Assembly: GCA_014800845.1 (NCBI GenBank)
Contig: JAAVFJ010000003.1
Location: forward strand, 89,438-153,437
Source of the DNA: Bacteroidales bacterium
GTDB taxonomy: Bacteria; Bacteroidota; Bacteroidia; Bacteroidales; Muribaculaceae
Direction of reading: 5' to 3'
DNA: 64,000 nucleotides
Under the pieces are notes generated by a model that worked only from the letters and a program-made list of their open reading frames with translations, had not been told where the DNA came from and ran no database searches. The position numbers were made by a program, and so were the translations under genes. Below, in pieces: positions 18,721-50,644 of this stretch; position 1 is the first letter of the stretch; every line of letters starts with the position of its first letter.

Positions 18721-21700
18721 ATGAATAAAAGACTTACTCATATCATGCCTGCACTTTTATTGGTGTTAGGCATGATTTTGCTTTACCTCCCCTCCGCTTC
18801 CGCAGCCAAGCAGACGCCGCGGAACACCTTCGCCTCTCCCGACTTTGCGTATCCGAAGACGGTGGCGGCCAATGCCGATAAAGCTCTGCAGAAGGCGCTC
18901 TCCGATGGCGATGACGTCAATGTAGTCCGCGCGCTCATCCAGCTCACAATAGCTGATAATGATGTAAGCGCCGACAATCTACCTGCCCGCCTCCAAGCTA
19001 TCAGCGACGTGGCCGCCAAAAGCTCGGGCGAGAGGCTGGCAGTCCTGCGTCTGCTGCAGGCAAGATTGCTAAATGAAGTATATCAGTCAGATAGTTACAA
19101 GTATTCTAACCGTAATCTCCCCACTGACAGCTTCCCTGCAGATCCTACCCTCTGGAGTAAAGATCTCTTCGCGCTCCGCATCCATTCGCTTGTGAACGAC
19201 GCGCTTGCCGATGAGGCTATGCTCGCCCGTGCTGACTACTCCAAATGGGCCCCCGTCTTCACCCCTCTCGATGAGCTCTCCGCGCAGTTCTACCCCGATC
19301 TCTATGCCGTGATGAGCAGCATAGGTCGCGGCACTCTGTCAAATTATACCGATGCCACCCAGGTCATACCCTTTACCGCCGCGGAAAATATTCAGTCGCC
19401 GGGTAGGAAATGCGCTGCGTTGAGCAATTCCATCGTGTCCAAAAATATTGAGATGGCCCGTGCCGACCACAACCCGGCGTGGCTCTCTGTGTGGATTAAA
19501 AATGAGAAGGGGAGCGCTGACCCAGAGCAGCGTCTGAAGCAGGTATTAGGTCTTTATAAGGAATGTGCCGCTTCGCCATATAGTTGCGAACTGCTGCTTG
19601 CGGCTTCCGAAATTACCGGTTTGAGCGATGCTGACAATGCTTTGCTTGAGACGTTGCTGACCGAAGCAGTGGAGCGCTATCCGGATTATCCGCGCATCAA
19701 CGCCCTGCGTAACGCTTTAGCGAATATGCAGCGTGCTTATGCCGACCTGAGAGTGCCGGGTCAGGTGATTCCCCGCAAGGAATTTGATATGATCGTGAAG
19801 ACCCGCGGCAAGCATGGACAGCTCTACGCGCAGATTTACGCAGTGGACAATGGCAACAGCGACCTGCGCAAATATCTTCAGACCGGCAAAGGTAAGTTTA
19901 TAGGCGCCTACCCGGTGACCGGTGACACCAGCACGATGCATATAACCCTCGATAAGCCAGGTACTTACGCCGCCGTCATGGCCGGTTCGAATGTGGCTCA
20001 TAAGAATCTTATGCTTGACGCCTACCCCGTCACTTTCGAGGCTTCAGGGCTGGAGGCTTACTACAGTTCCGGCGCTGAGAGCTGCGAGGATTCCCGTCTT
20101 TATATACTGGATGCTCTCAATGGCAAGCCTCTGAGCGGTGTTGAAGTGACGCTCACCCGCTCGGCATATAAGAAACCGACTCTCACCGAAAAGCTGAAAA
20201 CCAACTCCGAAGGGTGGGTGGCTGTAGGTGCCCCCAAGCAGGGCTACCGGGATTGCACCTATCTGGCGCAACTCCGTGGCGACAAGATTGAAAACAGTAT
20301 TTATCAGTATGTAAATCAGCCCTCCAGGCCCGGTGCAACAGCTCGTATTTTCCCCTCACTGAGCATATATAAACCCGGCGCCGAGTGCGATTTCGCTGTG
20401 GTAATGGCTGAGCAGGGGCTGGATACCCGCCGGTTGCTCACCGCTTATCCTATTGAGGTGCGCCTTCTGAACGCCTCCGGCCAGGATGTGGACACCCTGC
20501 AACTTACCACCGATAGCGAAGGCCGTGCTATAGGTCGCTTCACCCTCCCTAAGGATGGTATGATGGGAACCTTTGGCATCACTGTTTACTCCGCCGATGG
20601 CAAGAAACACCTCGGCTATGAGACTATACGCGTGGAGGAATACCGAGTGCCCGGTTTCTATGTGAATCTGGAGAGCGGCAAGCCTGCCTATAAGCTTGGC
20701 GACAGCGTGGAGCTCACGGGCGAAGTGCGCAGCTACTCCGGTATGGCTATGCCCGGCAGCAGCGTGAATATCACGGTGAACTACCGTCAGCCCTGGTGGC
20801 GCAGATATAGTGCCACTGGTACCTATTCAGCTACCGTCACTACCGATGAATCCGGCAACTTCAAACTCACTTTGCCTACCTCAGCCCTCAAGGATACACC
20901 TTATGCGGCCGGCGCTTTTGAGGTGGTGGCCGAAGTCACCTCAGCAGCCGGGGAGACCTGCCGAAGCAACACCGCCGTTTTCTCTCTGGGAAATCTTGCG
21001 CGTGTAATGATTACCTCCCCCTCCTCCATTAAAGTTACAGACAAGACGGTTAAGTTTACTGCCAAAGCTGAAGACCTTCCCGATTCCGCTGCGTTGAGTT
21101 ATAAACTTGTGAGTGCTGACGGCAAGGAGGTCGCTTCCGGTGACTTTCCGCTTACGGGTCTCTCGCTGCCCGCAGCGCAGCTCCCATCCGGCGAATATAA
21201 ACTGACAGTAAGCATCCCCGGCGTTGAGCCGGCTGCCGACAGTGCTTCAATTGTGATTTGGCGCCCCGGTGATGCCCGCCCTCCTGTAAACACACCCCTC
21301 TGGATTCCTGAAAACAGCTATGTGGCAGAGCCCGGAGCTAAGACTGTTGACATCATATTCGGCAGCACGGCCACTGAGCAGTCCGTGCTGGTGACTGTGG
21401 CCGATGAGCACAAAATCCTGTCACGCCAGACTGTGGTGCTCACCGACTGCAATAGGAGAGTGAGTGTCCCGGTGCCTGCCGATGGCCACAAGAATTTTGT
21501 ATGCCTCTTTACTGTTAACGATGCCAAATGCTATCCGGCTACCATCGAGGTAAACGCCCCTCATCGTGAGCTGAAGATGCAGGTTAAGTCCTTCCGCGAC
21601 AAAATCTTTGCCGGTGGCAAAGAGCGCTGGTCGTTCAGCTACGTCGGTGAGAATGTAAGCGCAGCAGACATGCCTGTGATTGCAACCCTCTCTGACAAAG

Positions 21701-24339
21701 CGCTCAACGCGCTCGTGCCCTTCTCATGGCAATGGATTGAGTATAGCTTCCTCAGCCAGGGTGTGAACACCTCCTATTGGTCTACAGGCCTGATGGGCAA
21801 CACATTCAGCCTTGGCGATTCCACCCCTTACACCTATCCCGCTGTCACCGTGCCCGGCTTCTACACTTGGGGCCGAAGCATGTATCCCGTGCAGACGATC
21901 TACGTAAGAGGCACCCGGCGCATGTATGCCGCGGCTGCGCCGACCGCCGCCCCTGCCGCCGGTGCCAACATGATGATGATGAAGCAGAGTCAGACAGCCG
22001 ATTCGGCAGCCGCTATAGAGGAATCTGTAAAAGTAGAGGGTGCAGATGAGGGTGGAGCGCTCCCCGCCGCCGATGTTCAGCTGCGCCCTGCCGAGCTCCC
22101 CCTTGCGTGGTTCAAGCCCGCTTTGATCACCGACGGAAAGGGCCTTCTGGAAATCTCCTTTGACGTGCCCGATTTCAACACTACCTGGCAGCTTCAGCTT
22201 CTCGCTTATACCCGCGACCTGATAACCACCAACTCGGTGCTTTACACCGTGGCCTCCAAACCGGTGATGGTAAAATCGGTTGTACCCCGCTTCCTGCGCA
22301 CCGGCGACAAGGCGCGACTGACGGCCACTCTCTTCAATAACACTGACGCCGTGGCCTCTCCCGAAGCCGAGGTTATAATCTTTAATCCCCTTGACAACAG
22401 GGTCATTGCAAGCCGCAAATATGAGGCGCAGCCTCTGGACTCCATGGGGCAGCGCGTGCTTGACATTGAGCTGACAGTGCCTGCCGATGTTCAGACCTTG
22501 GGCTACAAAGTGCTGGCGCGTTCCGGTGAGTATTCCGACGGCGAGCAGAGCCTGATAGGCATTCTCCCCTCATCTTCCCCCGTGACGGAGGGCTATCCCT
22601 TCTATTTGTCGCCCAGTCAGGATGAATTTACCATGCAGCTTCCGGACCTCAGAGAGGGGAGTGCAGCACTGCAGTACTGCGACAACCCGGTGTGGTATTG
22701 CGTGACGGCATTGCCCACCGTAGCCGCGGAGCAAAATGCTTCTGTGCTGTCAGTAGCCAACTCATTGTTTGCTAATGCAATAACAGCACACCTCGTCGGA
22801 AAATATCCGCGTATCACCGAAGCTGTAGAGCTCTGGAAAGCCACCTCCGACTCCACGCTCATGTCTGCTCTGGAGCGCGATCCGCAGCTTAAGGCCGTAA
22901 TGCTTTCGGCTACCCCCTGGGTGACCAATGCCGAGAGCGAGACGCTCAGAATGGCGCAGTTGGCATCGTTTATCTCCAACTCTAAAGCCGCAAGCGAGGA
23001 GGCCATTAAAGCCCTTATTGACCGCGTAAACCCCGACGGAGGCTGGAGCTGGTGCGATGGCATGCCCTCCTCCGAATACATCACGCGCCGAGTGCTCGCG
23101 CAGCTCGCCAAGCTGAAAGACATAGGCGCATTGCCCGCAGGTTCAGAGCTTGCTGCAGTGATTGATAAGGCCATCGGCTACTGCGAGACACAGATAATCC
23201 GCCAGACTGCAGGCACCAAGAATGTAGACGCTGAGAGTCTGATGAATTGGTTCTACATCCGCAGCTTCTTCCCGGCTCCAAACAGCACAGATACCAAAAG
23301 TCCGGTTGCTGTAATGAAGGCTCTGAAGACCTCCTGCATCAAGAAGATTCGCGCCAACTGGAAGAATTACAGCATAGCTGACGCTGCCACCGCGGCCATA
23401 CTCCTTTATCGCGATGGCTACCCCATGCAGGCGCGCGAAATACTGGAATCGCTCAGACAGCGCGCTGAGACAGCAGCCGAAAAGGGTATGTGGTATGCTA
23501 ACTTTCAGAACGACTTTTCAGGACTTTCAACCCTGCTCACCACCACGCGTGTGCTGGAAGCATTCACAGATATTTCTCCCGACTCCCCGTGCATCGAGCC
23601 CCTGGTGCAGTGGCTTGTGCTTGAGCGTCAGGCTCGCGACTGGGGAGGTAGTGCCTCGGTGGCCGAAGTGGTCTGGGCAATCATCAACGGTGCTCCGAAG
23701 TGGACAGAACCCTCCGAGCCCGCTCAGATTGAGCTTAACGGCAAACGCCTGGATATAAGCAAGATGTCCGCGCTGACCGGTGCGATTACTCTCCCCCTCG
23801 ATGCGAGCGAGGCTTCACGTGCGCAGCTTGCCATCAGCCGCAGCTCTCAGTCGCCGGCATGGGGCGGAATAATCACCCGCTACATTGCCCCCATAGAGGA
23901 TGTCAAGGATTTCAGCAACGGCGCAGTGAGTGTGACCAAACGTCTCCTGCTCGTAGTGCAGGATGAGGCAGGCACCCACACAGAGAACGTAGGCGATCGC
24001 CCGCTCAAGTCTGGAGACAAGGTGAGAGTGCAACTCACAGTTGAATCCGCGCGCGACATAGATTATGCCGTGATTACCGACGAGCAGTGCGGCTGCCTGA
24101 TGCCCGCTGACCAGCTCTCCGGCTACAAGTATGGTGGCGAAGTTGGCTACTACCGCGAGGTGCGCACAGGTGTGACCAATTTCTTCATACCGCGTTTGCA
24201 TAAAGGCAAATTCCTGGTGGAATACGATTGCTACGTGGAGGGGGAAGGAACCTACGCCTCCGGCATAGCCACCCTGCAAAGTCTCTACGCCCCCTCCCTG
24301 ACCGCTCACTCGGCCGGCTCCGACGTCCACGTGCAGTGA
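18721..24339 (+). CDS. Alpha-2-macroglobulin family protein without the thioester cysteine
   Basis: A giant 1872-residue exported protein, likely periplasmic or surface bound, that would trap or block proteases. The signal peptide is of the ordinary type (MNKRLTHIMPALLLVLGMILLYLPSASA), with no lipobox. The MG2-like domain begins near residue 530. The A2M core follows (LPLAWFKPALITDGKGLLEISFDVPDFNTTWQLQ), then the alpha-helical toroid (NPDGGWSWCDGMPSSEYITRRVLAQL). At the thioester position, where CxEQ is expected, the sequence is AAEQ (residues 1335-1338), so covalent capture is not possible by the usual chemistry. No penicillin-binding protein 1C gene is beside it. It could be cotranscribed with the Spy-like gene. 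Confidence 0.9.
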   Translation: MNKRLTHIMPALLLVLGMILLYLPSASAAKQTPRNTFASPDFAYPKTVAANADKALQKALSDGDDVNVVRALIQLTIADNDVSADNLPARLQAISDVAAKSSGERLAVLRLLQARLLNEVYQSDSYKYSNRNLPTDSFPADPTLWSKDLFALRIHSLVNDALADEAMLARADYSKWAPVFTPLDELSAQFYPDLYAVMSSIGRGTLSNYTDATQVIPFTAAENIQSPGRKCAALSNSIVSKNIEMARADHNPAWLSVWIKNEKGSADPEQRLKQVLGLYKECAASPYSCELLLAASEITGLSDADNALLETLLTEAVERYPDYPRINALRNALANMQRAYADLRVPGQVIPRKEFDMIVKTRGKHGQLYAQIYAVDNGNSDLRKYLQTGKGKFIGAYPVTGDTSTMHITLDKPGTYAAVMAGSNVAHKNLMLDAYPVTFEASGLEAYYSSGAESCEDSRLYILDALNGKPLSGVEVTLTRSAYKKPTLTEKLKTNSEGWVAVGAPKQGYRDCTYLAQLRGDKIENSIYQYVNQPSRPGATARIFPSLSIYKPGAECDFAVVMAEQGLDTRRLLTAYPIEVRLLNASGQDVDTLQLTTDSEGRAIGRFTLPKDGMMGTFGITVYSADGKKHLGYETIRVEEYRVPGFYVNLESGKPAYKLGDSVELTGEVRSYSGMAMPGSSVNITVNYRQPWWRRYSATGTYSATVTTDESGNFKLTLPTSALKDTPYAAGAFEVVAEVTSAAGETCRSNTAVFSLGNLARVMITSPSSIKVTDKTVKFTAKAEDLPDSAALSYKLVSADGKEVASGDFPLTGLSLPAAQLPSGEYKLTVSIPGVEPAADSASIVIWRPGDARPPVNTPLWIPENSYVAEPGAKTVDIIFGSTATEQSVLVTVADEHKILSRQTVVLTDCNRRVSVPVPADGHKNFVCLFTVNDAKCYPATIEVNAPHRELKMQVKSFRDKIFAGGKERWSFSYVGENVSAADMPVIATLSDKALNALVPFSWQWIEYSFLSQGVNTSYWSTGLMGNTFSLGDSTPYTYPAVTVPGFYTWGRSMYPVQTIYVRGTRRMYAAAAPTAAPAAGANMMMMKQSQTADSAAAIEESVKVEGADEGGALPAADVQLRPAELPLAWFKPALITDGKGLLEISFDVPDFNTTWQLQLLAYTRDLITTNSVLYTVASKPVMVKSVVPRFLRTGDKARLTATLFNNTDAVASPEAEVIIFNPLDNRVIASRKYEAQPLDSMGQRVLDIELTVPADVQTLGYKVLARSGEYSDGEQSLIGILPSSSPVTEGYPFYLSPSQDEFTMQLPDLREGSAALQYCDNPVWYCVTALPTVAAEQNASVLSVANSLFANAITAHLVGKYPRITEAVELWKATSDSTLMSALERDPQLKAVMLSATPWVTNAESETLRMAQLASFISNSKAASEEAIKALIDRVNPDGGWSWCDGMPSSEYITRRVLAQLAKLKDIGALPAGSELAAVIDKAIGYCETQIIRQTAGTKNVDAESLMNWFYIRSFFPAPNSTDTKSPVAVMKALKTSCIKKIRANWKNYSIADAATAAILLYRDGYPMQAREILESLRQRAETAAEKGMWYANFQNDFSGLSTLLTTTRVLEAFTDISPDSPCIEPLVQWLVLERQARDWGGSASVAEVVWAIINGAPKWTEPSEPAQIELNGKRLDISKMSALTGAITLPLDASEASRAQLAISRSSQSPAWGGIITRYIAPIEDVKDFSNGAVSVTKRLLLVVQDEAGTHTENVGDRPLKSGDKVRVQLTVESARDIDYAVITDEQCGCLMPADQLSGYKYGGEVGYYREVRTGVTNFFIPRLHKGKFLVEYDCYVEGEGTYASGIATLQSLYAPSLTAHSAGSDVHVQ

Positions 24340-26521: not shown

Positions 26522-26911
26522 ATGGATTTCAAATTGCATTTTGACCACTATAATATCAATGTGGCTGACCGCGACCGGTCTCTTAAGTTTTATGCCGAGG
26601 CTCTGGGCCTTCACGAAGTGGGCCACATTGACGCTCCCGACGGCTCCTTTACCATCACATATCTCGGCGATGGAGCGACAGATTTCCGCCTTGAGATAAC
26701 CTGCCTCAAGGAGCATCCGCAAAATTATGACCTCGGAGAAAATGAAACGCATCTCGCGTTGCGTCTCGCCTCTAACCAGAGCTACGCAGATATGTTGGCT
26801 TATCACACGCAGATGGGCGTAGTCTGCTTTGAGAATCCCGCCATGGGTATCTATTTCATAGAGGACCCCGATGGCTACTGGATAGAAATTCTCCCTCCGA
26901 AGAAGGCCTAA
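26522..26911 (+). CDS. VOC family protein (glyoxalase I-like fold)
   Basis: A 129-residue single-domain vicinal oxygen chelate protein. It has the lactoylglutathione-lyase-like pattern: FDHYNINVADRDRSLKFYAEALGL at the start, ETHLALRL in the middle and YFIEDPDGYWIEIL at the end, providing His and Glu metal ligands. A glyoxalase I or related isomerase role is plausible; the substrate cannot be read. Confidence 0.88.
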   Translation: MDFKLHFDHYNINVADRDRSLKFYAEALGLHEVGHIDAPDGSFTITYLGDGATDFRLEITCLKEHPQNYDLGENETHLALRLASNQSYADMLAYHTQMGVVCFENPAMGIYFIEDPDGYWIEILPPKKA

Positions 26912-26954
26912 GAAAGTCTTGCTTCATACGCCATAACTGTTAAAAATTATTAAT

Positions 26955-26990
26955 AACTAAGTTTTTAGTTGTGTAACTAAAAACTTAGTT
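26955..26990. promoter_or_regulatory. Double-dyad operator of the BlaI-like regulator
   Basis: AACTAAGTTTTTAGTT and AACTAAAAACTTAGTT form a perfect 16-bp inverted repeat with a 4-base spacer. Each arm is itself a dyad, AACTAA-N4-TTAGTT, so two dimers could bind side by side. It lies directly before the -7 box TATTTTTG (26992-26999) and covers the -33 region. Autorepression by the BlaI-like protein is the natural inference. Confidence 0.8.
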
Positions 26991-26991
26991 T

Positions 26992-26999
26992 TATTTTTG
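26992..26999 (+). promoter_or_regulatory. -7 box of the blaI/blaR-like operon
   Basis: TATTTTTG matches TAnnTTTG and sits one base after the operator. The leader to the ATG at 27024 is about 20 bases. Confidence 0.65.
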
Positions 27000-27023: not shown

Positions 27024-27401
27024 ATGACTCACGACCGCAGACCCCTTTCAAAAAAGGAGGAGGAGATAATGAATTATTTCTGGAAAGAAGGACCGCTCTT
27101 CATCCGAGAGATAGTAGAACGGATGGCGGAGCCTAAGCCGCATGTCAACACCGTGGCTACCTTTGTGCGCTCTATCGAGGCAAAGGGGTGGCTTACGCGC
27201 GAACAAATCGGTAATTCTTACCGTTATTCGCCGGCGGTGCCGATGGAGGAGGTACGCGAGAAATCCATGCGCGGACTCATTGACCGCTTCTTCAATAAGT
27301 CTTATCTGTCGTTTGTGTCAGCCCTGGTGAAGGAGGATAAAATCTCCCCCGAGGAGCTGCGCGAACTGCTTGAGAAAATCGAGCAGGGAAAGGAGGAGTG
27401 A
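27024..27401 (+). CDS. BlaI/MecI/CopY family transcriptional repressor
   Basis: A 125-residue winged-helix repressor. I set the start at MTHDRRPLSKKEEEIMNYFW (27024), because the track start lies too close to the -7 box. The DNA-binding part has PHVNTVATFVRSIEAKGWLTRE, and the C-terminal helix is the dimer and cleavage region. In relatives the partner M56 protease inactivates the repressor. The M56 gene starts one base after this stop codon, so both are cotranscribed and control each other through the operator at 26955-26990. No beta-lactamase gene is in the window. Confidence 0.93.
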   Translation: MTHDRRPLSKKEEEIMNYFWKEGPLFIREIVERMAEPKPHVNTVATFVRSIEAKGWLTREQIGNSYRYSPAVPMEEVREKSMRGLIDRFFNKSYLSFVSALVKEDKISPEELRELLEKIEQGKEE

Positions 27402-27402
27402 T

Positions 27403-28971
27403 ATGGGTGCTTTCTTGAGCTATATGCTGCAGGTGTCAGTGATTATGACGCTGCTTTATCTGGGTTACAAGTGGTTGATGGCGGGCTCTACTTTCCATTC
27501 GCTCAACCGCTTTGCGCTGCTAAGCATCCTCGCTGTCTCCTGGCTTTTGCCACTCGGGTTGCCTCTCTTCAGGGTGACTCACTCCGTTGATATTGAGTTG
27601 GGTAATCCCATGAAATTCATAGTAGTCGAGGAATATGCACCCGCTGCTCCTACCTTTACCTTACTGCATGCATTGCTTCTGCTTTACTTCGCCGGTGTGG
27701 TGGCCACATTCGCATTTACATGCGTTGGAGTTATGCGTGTCTATCGCCTAATCAGTAGCGGCGAGTGCGTGAAGGAGGAAGGGTATATCCTTGTGAAAAA
27801 TCCGAAAGCTCCGGGGCCGATGAGTTGGGGATGCTACGTGATAGTGCGCCCCGAAGATTGCGACTCTGATTTCGAAATGGTGCTTCGCCATGAGCGTGCG
27901 CACCTGAGTCTGCTGCATTGGGTGGACCTGGTTCTTACGCAGCTCAACATTATATTCCAATGGTACAGCCCCACGGCGTGGTTGCTCATGCATGAAGTGA
28001 AGTGCGTGCATGAGTATCAGGCAGATGCCCGAGTGGCCTGCCGGAACGCCACGGCTTATCAACTCATGTTATTAAAAAAGACTGTCGGCTCGAGTTTCCC
28101 GACCTTCACCGACAGCCTGAACCATAGTCAAATTAAAACGCGTATAACTATGATGTTACGTAAAGATTCAGTTTCAGCACGCCGTCTGGCCGTGCTCGCG
28201 CTCCCCGCTATGGCAGCGCTTGGTGTATTCACACTCTCACTTCCGGCAGTGGCAGGAAGCATAGAGGCAGTAAAACAGGTCTCAATGCCTAATTTTTCCG
28301 CCGGCAAAATTACTAATTCTCCTGCACACGTGCAAGAAGATTGGGTAGTGGAGGAGGCAAGCGAAAGCACCGTTCTCCCCGTGCCTTCGGCTTCAGAAGC
28401 TGATTCACCCGCCGATGCGGTAGTGCAAGAAGCGATTCCTGCCTCCGAAACAAATGGGCAGGTTGAAAGCAACGCTGCTCAGGAAACCTCGGCCGCCCCG
28501 GTATATTTCGTTGATGGCATATTGTTTACAGGAAATATCAACTATCTTAAGCCCTCCGAAATCAGGAGCATGAGCGTAGTAAAAAATGACCCGGCTTATC
28601 CTCAGGGCAAAATTATGATTGTGACAGAGAAGGGTGGAGAGAGAGCTGACGCCACTGCAGAAAAGATTGCCGAATTCAAGGGTGGCATGTCTGCGCTGAA
28701 AGAGTATCTCGCCAAGACAGTGACCTATTCCCCCGAAAAGCTCACGAAGCCGGTTCGCGTGGTGGTGCAGTTCACGATCGCCACAGACGGTTCCGTCTCT
28801 GACGCCAAGATTATGCGCGGAGCTCCGGCAGACCTCGGTGAGCTTAATGATGAAGCGCTCCGTGCTGTCGCTGCCACCAGTGGCAAGTGGGAACCTGCGC
28901 AATCTGATGGTCACGCAGTGGCTACCCGTTTCACTGTCCCCGTAACCTTCACTCCGAAGACAGCAAAGTAA
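27403..28971 (+). CDS. BlaR1-like M56 membrane peptidase fused to a TonB C-terminal domain
   Basis: A 522-residue sensor/transducer. Four membrane helices lie in the first 300 residues. The M56 zinc site is HERAH (H163, E164, H167) with the third ligand E204 in CVHEYQADA. A fifth helix follows near residue 270 (LAVLALPAMAALGVFTLSLPAVAG), then a periplasmic linker, a short plug-like segment (VYFVDGILFTGNINYL), and a TonB C-terminal domain (VRVVVQFTIATDGSVSDAKIM). There is no penicillin-binding sensor as in classical BlaR1. This M56-TonB form is common in Bacteroidetes, and its signal is unknown. The start at MGAFLSYMLQV is two bases after the repressor stop. Confidence 0.9.
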   Translation: MGAFLSYMLQVSVIMTLLYLGYKWLMAGSTFHSLNRFALLSILAVSWLLPLGLPLFRVTHSVDIELGNPMKFIVVEEYAPAAPTFTLLHALLLLYFAGVVATFAFTCVGVMRVYRLISSGECVKEEGYILVKNPKAPGPMSWGCYVIVRPEDCDSDFEMVLRHERAHLSLLHWVDLVLTQLNIIFQWYSPTAWLLMHEVKCVHEYQADARVACRNATAYQLMLLKKTVGSSFPTFTDSLNHSQIKTRITMMLRKDSVSARRLAVLALPAMAALGVFTLSLPAVAGSIEAVKQVSMPNFSAGKITNSPAHVQEDWVVEEASESTVLPVPSASEADSPADAVVQEAIPASETNGQVESNAAQETSAAPVYFVDGILFTGNINYLKPSEIRSMSVVKNDPAYPQGKIMIVTEKGGERADATAEKIAEFKGGMSALKEYLAKTVTYSPEKLTKPVRVVVQFTIATDGSVSDAKIMRGAPADLGELNDEALRAVAATSGKWEPAQSDGHAVATRFTVPVTFTPKTAK

Positions 28972-31238: not shown

Positions 31239-32012
31239 TCAGATGGCTGAGCGGATTACACCGCGGCCTGAGTTGCGAACGAAGTTGATGATTTCGTCGC
31301 GCAATTCGCAGGGCTCGATTTTCTCCTCCACAAGAGCCAAAGCGTTGGTTACGTTCAGGTCGCTCATGTAGAGGTAACGGTAAATTTCGTGAATCAGGTC
31401 CATATCTTCGCGTGACATGCCTCGGCGAGACATGCCGATGGTGTTCAGTCCCACGAAGGAGATAGGCTCGCGCGCGGCTTTCACGTATGGTGGGATGTCC
31501 TTGTTAACCAGTGCGCCACCCTGCAGCATGATGCCCTTGCCGAGGTGGCAGAACTGATGCACGAGGCTGCCGCCACCAATCACAGCGAAATCATCGACCA
31601 CAACCTCGCCGGCCAACTGTGTGCAGTTGGAGATAATCACACGGTTACCGATTTTGCAGTCGTGAGCTACGTGAGTGTAAGCCATGATCAGGCAATTCTG
31701 ACCCACCTCGGTACACCCTTTTGACGCGGTGCCGCGATTGACTGTCACACATTCGCGAAGCACAGTGCCGTCGCCCACAATTGCAGTGGTCTGTTCACCC
31801 TTGAACTTAAGGTCTTGAGGCACAGCACCTACCACAGCTCCAGGGAAGAGAGTCACGCCTGAACCGATACGGCTACCGGGGAAAATGGTCACATTGTTGT
31901 GAATCACGCAGTTGTCGCCGATAACCACGTCAGCGCCTATGGTGTTGAAGTTGCCAATCTGAAGCCCTGAGCCGATTTGCGCCTCATCGGATATTACGTT
32001 GTAGCTACCCAT
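31239..32012 (-). CDS. lpxA: Acyl-ACP--UDP-N-acetylglucosamine O-acyltransferase
   Basis: First acylation of lipid A synthesis in the cytoplasm. The 257-residue protein is a left-handed beta helix of hexapeptide repeats (SGLQIGNFNTIGADVVIGDN and onward), with the catalytic histidine region MAYTHVAHDCKIGN and the C-terminal helical domain (PISFVGLNTIGMSRRGMS). Its ATG overlaps the stop of lpxC/fabZ by one base (TAATG), so translation is coupled. It is the last gene of the lpxD-lpxC/fabZ-lpxA operon. Confidence 0.97.
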   Translation of the reverse strand: MGSYNVISDEAQIGSGLQIGNFNTIGADVVIGDNCVIHNNVTIFPGSRIGSGVTLFPGAVVGAVPQDLKFKGEQTTAIVGDGTVLRECVTVNRGTASKGCTEVGQNCLIMAYTHVAHDCKIGNRVIISNCTQLAGEVVVDDFAVIGGGSLVHQFCHLGKGIMLQGGALVNKDIPPYVKAAREPISFVGLNTIGMSRRGMSREDMDLIHEIYRYLYMSDLNVTNALALVEEKIEPCELRDEIINFVRNSGRGVIRSAI

Positions 32013-33394
32013 TACTTATTCTTGATTATCTGGGCCATAAATTCGGCCTCACACACTATTTTTTCGCCTACGAAAGCATAGCCCTTCACAGTGGCGCAGC
32101 CGCGGCGGATTTCTGTAGTGAGAGCCACATGGAGCAGCAGAGTGTTGCCGGGCACTACCTTTTGGCGGAACTTCACGTTGTCAATCTTCATGAAGTAAGT
32201 GGAGTAGCGTTCGGGGTCCTCCACATTATTGAGCACCAGCACGCCGGCAGTCTGTGCCATAGCTTCGATGATTAGCACGCCCGGCATAACAGGTTCCTGA
32301 GGGAAGTGTCCCTGGAAGAAGGGCTCGTTGACCGTAACATTCTTGACAGCCACGGCATGCTTCTTGTCCATCTCAATGAGCTTGTCCACCAGCAGGAAGG
32401 GATAGCGGTGGGGGAGCAGAGAGCGGATACCGTTGATGTCAATCAGCGGAGCCTTGTTAGGGTCATAGAGGGGGGCCTGAATTTCAGTGTGCTTCACCTC
32501 CTTGCGGAGCATGCGGGTGAACTTGCTGTTGATGCCGTGGCCGGGGCGAACGGCTACTACGCGGCCCATAAGGGGGCGCCCCACGAGGGCGAGGTCGCCG
32601 ATTACGTCCATGAGCTTATGGCGTGCAGGCTCGTTTTTCCACTGCAGCGGAGTCTCGTTAATGAATCCGAGCTTTGAGAGCTCGCGGTGGGGGATGCCTA
32701 TGATGTCGCAGAGTTTGTCGATATTCTCCTGCGGAGTCTCGCGGTCATAGATCACGATGGCATTGTCGAGGCTGCCACCCTTGATGAGTCCGCTTTCAAG
32801 CAGCGGCTCGATTTCGCGCACGAACACGAAAGTGCGGGCGCTGGCCACCTGCTCGCGGAAGTCGCGCATGTCGTCGAGCACGGCAAACTGGTTGGGCAGG
32901 ATAGGGGAGTTGTATTCCACCATTACCTCCACGCTAAAATGGTCATCGGGGTAGATGGTAATGGTTGAGCCGGTCTCCTCATCGCGAAGAGTGGTCTTCT
33001 GCTTGATGATATAGAAATCTTTGTCAGCTTTCAGTTCCTCCACACCGGCAGCCTCAATTGCATCAAGGTACTGTATGGCAGAGCCATCAAGAATAGGCAG
33101 CTCGGGAGCATTTACCTGAATGAGACAGTTGTCAATGCCTGAGGCGCAGAGCGCAGCCAGCGCATGTTCTACGGTGCTTACGCGCACATCGCCCTTGCCG
33201 AGCACAGTGCCGCGTGTGGTGTCAACCACATTTTCAGCTACTGCGTCAATCACGGGTTGGTTTTCGAGGTCAACGCGCTGGAATTTATAGCCGTGGCCGG
33301 CGGGCGCGGGCAGGAAAGTAGCAGTGATCTGCAGGCCGGTGTGAAGCCCGCGGCCCTCAACAGTAAATTGATTCTTAAGTGTAAGTTGGTTCAT
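32012..33394 (-). CDS. Bifunctional UDP-3-O-acyl-N-acetylglucosamine deacetylase / 3-hydroxyacyl-ACP dehydratase
   Basis: Fusion of LpxC, the committed zinc deacetylase of lipid A synthesis, with FabZ, a dehydratase of fatty-acid elongation. The 460 residues have LpxC from 1 to about 310 (TVEHALAALCASGIDNCLI, zinc histidine in VEHALAAL, and ARHKLMDVIGDLAL with the later metal ligands), then FabZ from about 322 (LPHRYPFLLVDKLIEM, H329; EPFFQGHFPQEPVMPG with the catalytic histidine). This fusion is typical of Bacteroidetes. It is 18 bases downstream of lpxD and overlaps lpxA by one base. Confidence 0.97.
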   Translation of the reverse strand: MNQLTLKNQFTVEGRGLHTGLQITATFLPAPAGHGYKFQRVDLENQPVIDAVAENVVDTTRGTVLGKGDVRVSTVEHALAALCASGIDNCLIQVNAPELPILDGSAIQYLDAIEAAGVEELKADKDFYIIKQKTTLRDEETGSTITIYPDDHFSVEVMVEYNSPILPNQFAVLDDMRDFREQVASARTFVFVREIEPLLESGLIKGGSLDNAIVIYDRETPQENIDKLCDIIGIPHRELSKLGFINETPLQWKNEPARHKLMDVIGDLALVGRPLMGRVVAVRPGHGINSKFTRMLRKEVKHTEIQAPLYDPNKAPLIDINGIRSLLPHRYPFLLVDKLIEMDKKHAVAVKNVTVNEPFFQGHFPQEPVMPGVLIIEAMAQTAGVLVLNNVEDPERYSTYFMKIDNVKFRQKVVPGNTLLLHVALTTEIRRGCATVKGYAFVGEKIVCEAEFMAQIIKNK

Positions 33395-50566: not shown

Positions 50567-50644
50567 TTCCCCTTAAGTGTAAAACGCAGGCGCCCGAATG
50601 GCGCCTGCGTTTTACACTTAAGGGGAACAAGTTAACATTAATGG
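50567..50644. repeat. Dispersed hairpin element, copy R2, with a perfect 28-bp inverted repeat
   Basis: TTCCCCTTAAGTGTAAAACG... (50567-50594) and its exact reverse complement (50600-50627) are separated only by the five-base loop CGAAT. The right flank GGCGCCTGCGTTT...GGGGAACAAGTTAACAT matches copy R1 at 36988-37029. Like R1, it sits between a plus-strand terminator and a heptamer array at a minus-strand stop codon. Confidence 0.8.

Follow-up and report, generated by a model that had tools for sequence, protein, structure and literature searches.

The 64,000-nucleotide stretch analysed here (the window) contains a perfect 16-bp inverted repeat upstream of a blaI/blaR-like operon. The questions raised by this locus are what the repeat does, which part of it is conserved and which genes it reaches. 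A first-pass annotation, made from the letters of the window, had read it as a double-dyad operator of the BlaI-like repressor, abutting the -7 box of the operon, and had offered it as a sequence for finding the regulon.

Sequence and promoter geometry

The whole element, AACTAAGTTTTTAGTT-GTGT-AACTAAAAACTTAGTT, occupies positions 26955-26990, directly 5' of the -7 box and the blaI/blaR-like operon. It consists of a distal dyad (AACTAAGTTTTTAGTT, 26955-26970, forward strand) and a central dyad (AACTAAAAACTTAGTT, 26975-26990, forward strand), separated by GTGT (26971-26974). The two dyads are exact reverse complements and both read AACTAA-N4-TTAGTT with 0 mismatches, so the perfect 16-bp repeat with dyad arms is present as annotated. 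At the base composition of the window, a genome of 2.45 Mb would by chance hold about 0.09 single dyads, and pairs at the spacing seen here would number about 3e-8. The -33 box TTG (26969-26971, forward strand) combines the final TT of the distal dyad with the G that follows it. The -7 box TATTTTTG (TAnnTTTG; 26992-26999, forward strand) follows one base after the central dyad, and this gap of 1 nt bears out the claim that the operator abuts it.

The same register, TTG-N3-dyad-N1-TAnnTTTG, was found in homologous promoters. In promoters with a -7 box, the box begins exactly 2 nt after a dyad (53 sites), and the TTG offset from the central dyad, determined in 52 promoters, is -6 in 39 and -5 in 9. 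Given this offset, the spacer that separates the -33 box from the -7 box is taken up by the central dyad. Promoters with two dyads fall into two layouts. In one, the second dyad covers the -33 box from a position 20-21 bp upstream, and the -7 box comes right after the downstream dyad in 26/31 pairs. In the other, the second dyad lies 28-33 bp downstream, close to where transcription starts, and the -7 box comes right after the upstream dyad (25/32). The window promoter has the layout with the second dyad upstream, over the -33 box. Among seven congeners, the half-sites, those of the distal dyad included, and the promoter boxes are kept and the flanks are not.

The 16-bp inverted repeat exists largely because each arm is already palindromic, and only the 4-bp cores add information. 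Complementarity of the cores is complete in 8 of the 31 same-layout pairs. The conserved unit is a single 16-bp dyad in fixed promoter register, and the annotation's inverted repeat does not hold as a unit. In 9/28 same-layout promoters, a further left half-site AACT stands at a constant 20 bp from the distal dyad, on its upstream side. The window promoter is one of these, with AACT at 26935, and congeners keep it. This recurrence suggests a degenerate third operator site, for which AACTGTTAAAAATTAT (26935-26950, forward strand) is the candidate in the window.

Association with blaI genes in relatives

For 130 distinct BlaI genes, mostly from the same family and order and each with at least 150 nt of upstream sequence, up to 250 bp before the gene were searched for AACTAA-N4-TTAGTT, allowing one mismatch. 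Shuffling these regions by dinucleotide provided the control. An exact dyad was found upstream of 67/130 genes (shuffles: 0), a dyad with up to one mismatch upstream of 82/130 (0.6 expected from shuffles) and two dyads within 45 bp in 62/130 (0.05 expected). When spacer lengths were compared, ACTAA-N4-TTAGT stood far above all others; N5 came second (12 genes) and the remaining lengths were at noise. The N5 variant has full half-sites at these 12 of 130 BlaI genes, for example at loci L106, L109, L111 and L049. The N4 dyad with up to one mismatch was absent from 48/130 genes, 26 of which had the version with a 5-bp spacer and 22 neither.

Whole genomes were also searched. Exact dyads occur in 71 of the 198 family genomes, namely in 65/118 with a BlaI match versus 6/80 without (Fisher p = 7e-13). 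Among the matches listed in these 198 genomes, 67/75 exact sites are found immediately 5' of a blaI; at three of the loci behind this count, blaI coordinates were read from the locus sequence instead of the search table. All exact double dyads in the family (11/11) precede blaI. Across the class (395 genomes), 15 sites combine the dyad with a -7 box after it; 13 of them precede blaI, and the reversed control gave none. On these counts (82/130 versus 0.6, 67/75 of the listed sites, 65/118 versus 6/80 and 13/15 class-wide), the annotated operator function is strongly supported at the level of sequence, and the double dyad is very probably the operator of the blaI/blaR-like operon.

The repressor and its membrane partner

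The first gene of the operon (27024-27401, forward strand) encodes a 125-aa repressor of the BlaI/MecI/CopY family. It matches PF03965 (Penicillinase_R) over residues 8-121 of 125 (E 5e-30; 104.6 bits, cut-off 22.6), is the only PF03965 protein of the genome and is matched in sequence by MecI and BlaI chains of the PDB with E values of 1e-7 to 3e-6. As judged by sequence and conservation, a palindromic operator lies in its own promoter. The NCBIfam BlaI/MecI models gave 25-35 bits, below their cut-offs of 180-250. The protein contains no cysteine and hence no C-terminal Cys-X-Cys as in CopY, and the CopY_TcrY model gave 50 bits (cut-off 122). Residue N43 of the recognition helix (MecI numbering) was found in 106/108 BlaI proteins whose genes have an N4 or N5 dyad and in 13/22 of the others, which is in keeping with a changed half-site. 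BlaR1 of S. aureus cleaves BlaI between N101 and F102 (PMC9834060). The residue matched to P1' of this cut is L or F in 128/130 proteins, and L in the window.

The second gene (27403-28971, forward strand) begins 1 nt after the blaI stop and encodes a 522-aa BlaR1-type membrane metallopeptidase with an M56 domain (PF05569) and a TonB C-terminal domain (PF03544). It is the only M56 protein of the genome, and the operon the only one of its kind there. The HExxH motif reads HERAH (residues 163-167), and H163, E164, H167 and E204 are conserved, giving the gluzincin pattern HExxH...E. A structure model (mean pLDDT 84.5) best matched S. aureus BlaR1 (8EXQ), and its C-terminal part matched a TonB C-terminal domain (6I97). 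The blaR-like label thus stands for the BlaR1 protease half of the protein and fails for the other: by domain search and model, the penicillin-binding sensor domain is absent and the C-terminus is TonB_C. In relatives, M56 is the next gene after blaI in 103/110 loci (HExxH in 102), and 49 of 60 M56 partners carry TonB_C. An association of M56 proteins lacking the TonB domain with the GLPGLI/outer-membrane cassette described below was considered and discarded (Fisher p = 1).

Alternative explanations and reach of the operator

Upstream of the operator lie a glyoxalase-family gene (26522-26911) and a gene for an Omp28/choice-of-anchor protein; further upstream, 18721-24339 encodes a 1872-aa bacterial alpha-2-macroglobulin-like protein (MG2, A2M, bMG10). 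The glyoxalase-family gene runs in the same direction and ends 43 bp before the repeat, which could then be its intrinsic terminator, with a 16-bp stem, a GTGT loop and a T-rich tail. A terminator-like match was indeed reported at the repeat, and its RNA folding reached z = -3.8. Against this, the stem is nearly all A-U with 3 G-C pairs, the layout with 28-33 bp places the dyads further apart, and the upstream genes of relatives differ in identity, 58/99 of them pointing the opposite way. The dyads themselves are kept and stand in fixed register with the promoter boxes. Because the complementarity of the cores is not conserved, a terminator fails to explain the conservation; this reading is very unlikely, and a role of the repeat as terminator or cruciform was rejected on the same ground. 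In this one genome, a weak terminator effect could exist besides the operator role. Another perfect 16-bp inverted repeat, possibly a terminator, was seen at 50577-50617 (GTGTAAAACGCAGGCG arms, G+C-containing, loop of 9). That the dyad serves some other regulator, one unrelated to BlaI whose targets happen to include blaI genes, is more improbable still: repressor binding at the dyad is a prediction, but the sites concentrate in BlaI-bearing genomes and adjoin blaI, and both the 16-bp length and the ACTA-N6-TAGT frame recall MecI/CopY-type operators (RNYKACANNTGTMRNY, PMC7253601).

The operator of the BlaI-like repressor might belong to a broader set of targets, reached through weaker sites, with resistance genes such as a beta-lactamase among them. 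The genome does encode one class A beta-lactamase (PF13354, contig C34), and a few sites in relatives precede other envelope genes: at L165 one dyad stands before a GLPGLI/outer-membrane cassette with no blaI near, a candidate trans target, and at L247 (1501-1525) a dyad with a -7 box immediately precedes the gene of a MacB/FtsX-type permease that has no blaI as neighbour. The search of the own genome argues the other way. With 0-1 mismatch allowed, the pair is the only hit, against 11 matches of the reversed control pattern, and therefore the detectable target is the own operon; as a finder of the regulon, the sequence could be put to use as proposed, but at this threshold it returned only its own promoter. 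At 2 mismatches, 58 sites besides the pair were found versus 149 for the control, so that sites with 2 or more mismatches are within noise; weak targets may be among them. No dyad is present at the promoter of the beta-lactamase: the closest sequence in the 150 bp searched carries 3 mismatches and lies outside the spacer. A beta-lactamase repressor in the strict sense would control a beta-lactamase or PBP2a gene from its operator, and no such site was found at up to one mismatch in this genome. The genome also lacks GLPGLI genes. We consider a wider regulon of this kind unlikely.

A minority of the modules in relatives have envelope genes in the operon or at the site. Near blaI-M56, GLPGLI-family genes (PF09697) recur in 8 loci and CarboxypepD_reg outer-membrane proteins in 16; one or both stand beside the pair at L158, L165, L178, L180, L182, L056, L061, L068, L070 and L076. 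At L158, a double dyad precedes the gene run GLPGLI-outer-membrane-blaI-M56. GLPGLI genes were dismissed as general targets, a dyad with up to one mismatch being present at 2/30 GLPGLI loci. In one genus of the family (L191, L192, L193), ahpC-ahpF is divergent to blaI with a double dyad in between; shared control of ahpCF is uncertain, as ahpC begins about 125 bp beyond the dyads. Within the window, 32012-33394 encodes an LpxC fused to a FabA/FabZ-like domain, adjoining lpxA and an lpxD-like gene.

Proposed mechanism

From the sequence, its register and conservation, the target search and the domains of the two proteins, we infer the following steps of binding, repression, cleavage and signalling. 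Two repressor dimers would bind, one per 16-bp dyad. A dimer sitting on the central dyad would occupy the -33/-7 spacer and so block the Bacteroidetes housekeeping sigma factor, and the distal dyad, covering the -33 box, would strengthen occupancy. The operon would thus be repressed by its own product; it is the sole target detectable in the genome at 0-1 mismatch. On an envelope signal, the M56-TonB membrane protein is predicted to cleave the C-terminal dimerisation region of the repressor and so derepress the operon. The replacement of the penicillin sensor by a periplasmic TonB domain points to an outer-membrane or envelope cue as the signal. That the double dyad is the operator, the operon autorepressed and the protease its means of derepression on an envelope signal is highly probable.

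A more far-reaching version is a two-gene circuit in which the sensor is also the output. The M56-TonB protein would both inactivate the repressor and act, through its TonB domain, as an envelope effector, the amount of which rises on derepression; there would be no further target, and the fixed-register operator would be the signature of the module across the class Bacteroidia. This version is speculative and, on balance, doubtful.

Comparison with known systems

The system resembles BlaI/MecI-BlaR1 of S. aureus (1SAX, 2D45, 1XSD; 8EXP, PMC9834060) in the fold family of the repressor, assigned by sequence, in the operon of a repressor and an M56 gluzincin protease, and in the hydrophobic P1' at the position of the cut. 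It differs in the operator, where the S. aureus core is TACA/TGTA and that of the window AACTAA/TTAGTT, and in the recognition helix, where K43 and R46 of S. aureus are N and A. It also has neither a penicillin-binding sensor nor a beta-lactamase or mecA under the operator. With the CopR-CopY copper repressors (operator RNYKACANNTGTMRNY, PMC7253601) it has in common an operator of 16 bp with an identical outer frame, often present twice, but the window repressor, having no cysteine, lacks Cys-X-Cys and its operon lacks copper export genes.

The closest design is that of C. thermocellum, where DAP-seq and gel shift identified two inverted-repeat pairs upstream of the BlaI_1845 operon, its only target, and three targets of BlaI_0696 (PMC8457756). 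There, as here, paired inverted repeats at the own operon leave room for four protomers (PMC8457756), regulons are very small (one operon for BlaI_1845, three for BlaI_0696), BlaR1 genes lie within the operon, and the half-sites GACTAT/GTCTAT resemble AACTAA. The exact half-site sequence and dyad spacing differ, as do the TonB-bearing partner and the Bacteroidetes -33/-7 promoter setting of the window. Given the C. thermocellum and CopY precedents, the double operator at the own operon is an already known design. No published BlaI operators or M56-TonB proteins of Bacteroidetes were found in a search that covered mainly open-access papers, and an earlier description may exist; in the literature searched, the BlaI-type family of Bacteroidia appears uncharacterised. 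What this analysis adds is the consensus for Bacteroidia, its constant position relative to the promoter boxes, and the two layouts. The consensus and layout TTG-N3-AACTAANNNNTTAGTT-N-TAnnTTTG apply to a BlaI-type repressor widespread in Bacteroidia, and what BlaI/M56-TonB modules sense becomes directly testable. The name BlaI misleads in this case: no beta-lactamase gene lies behind the operator, and the sensor carries a TonB domain in place of the penicillin-binding one.
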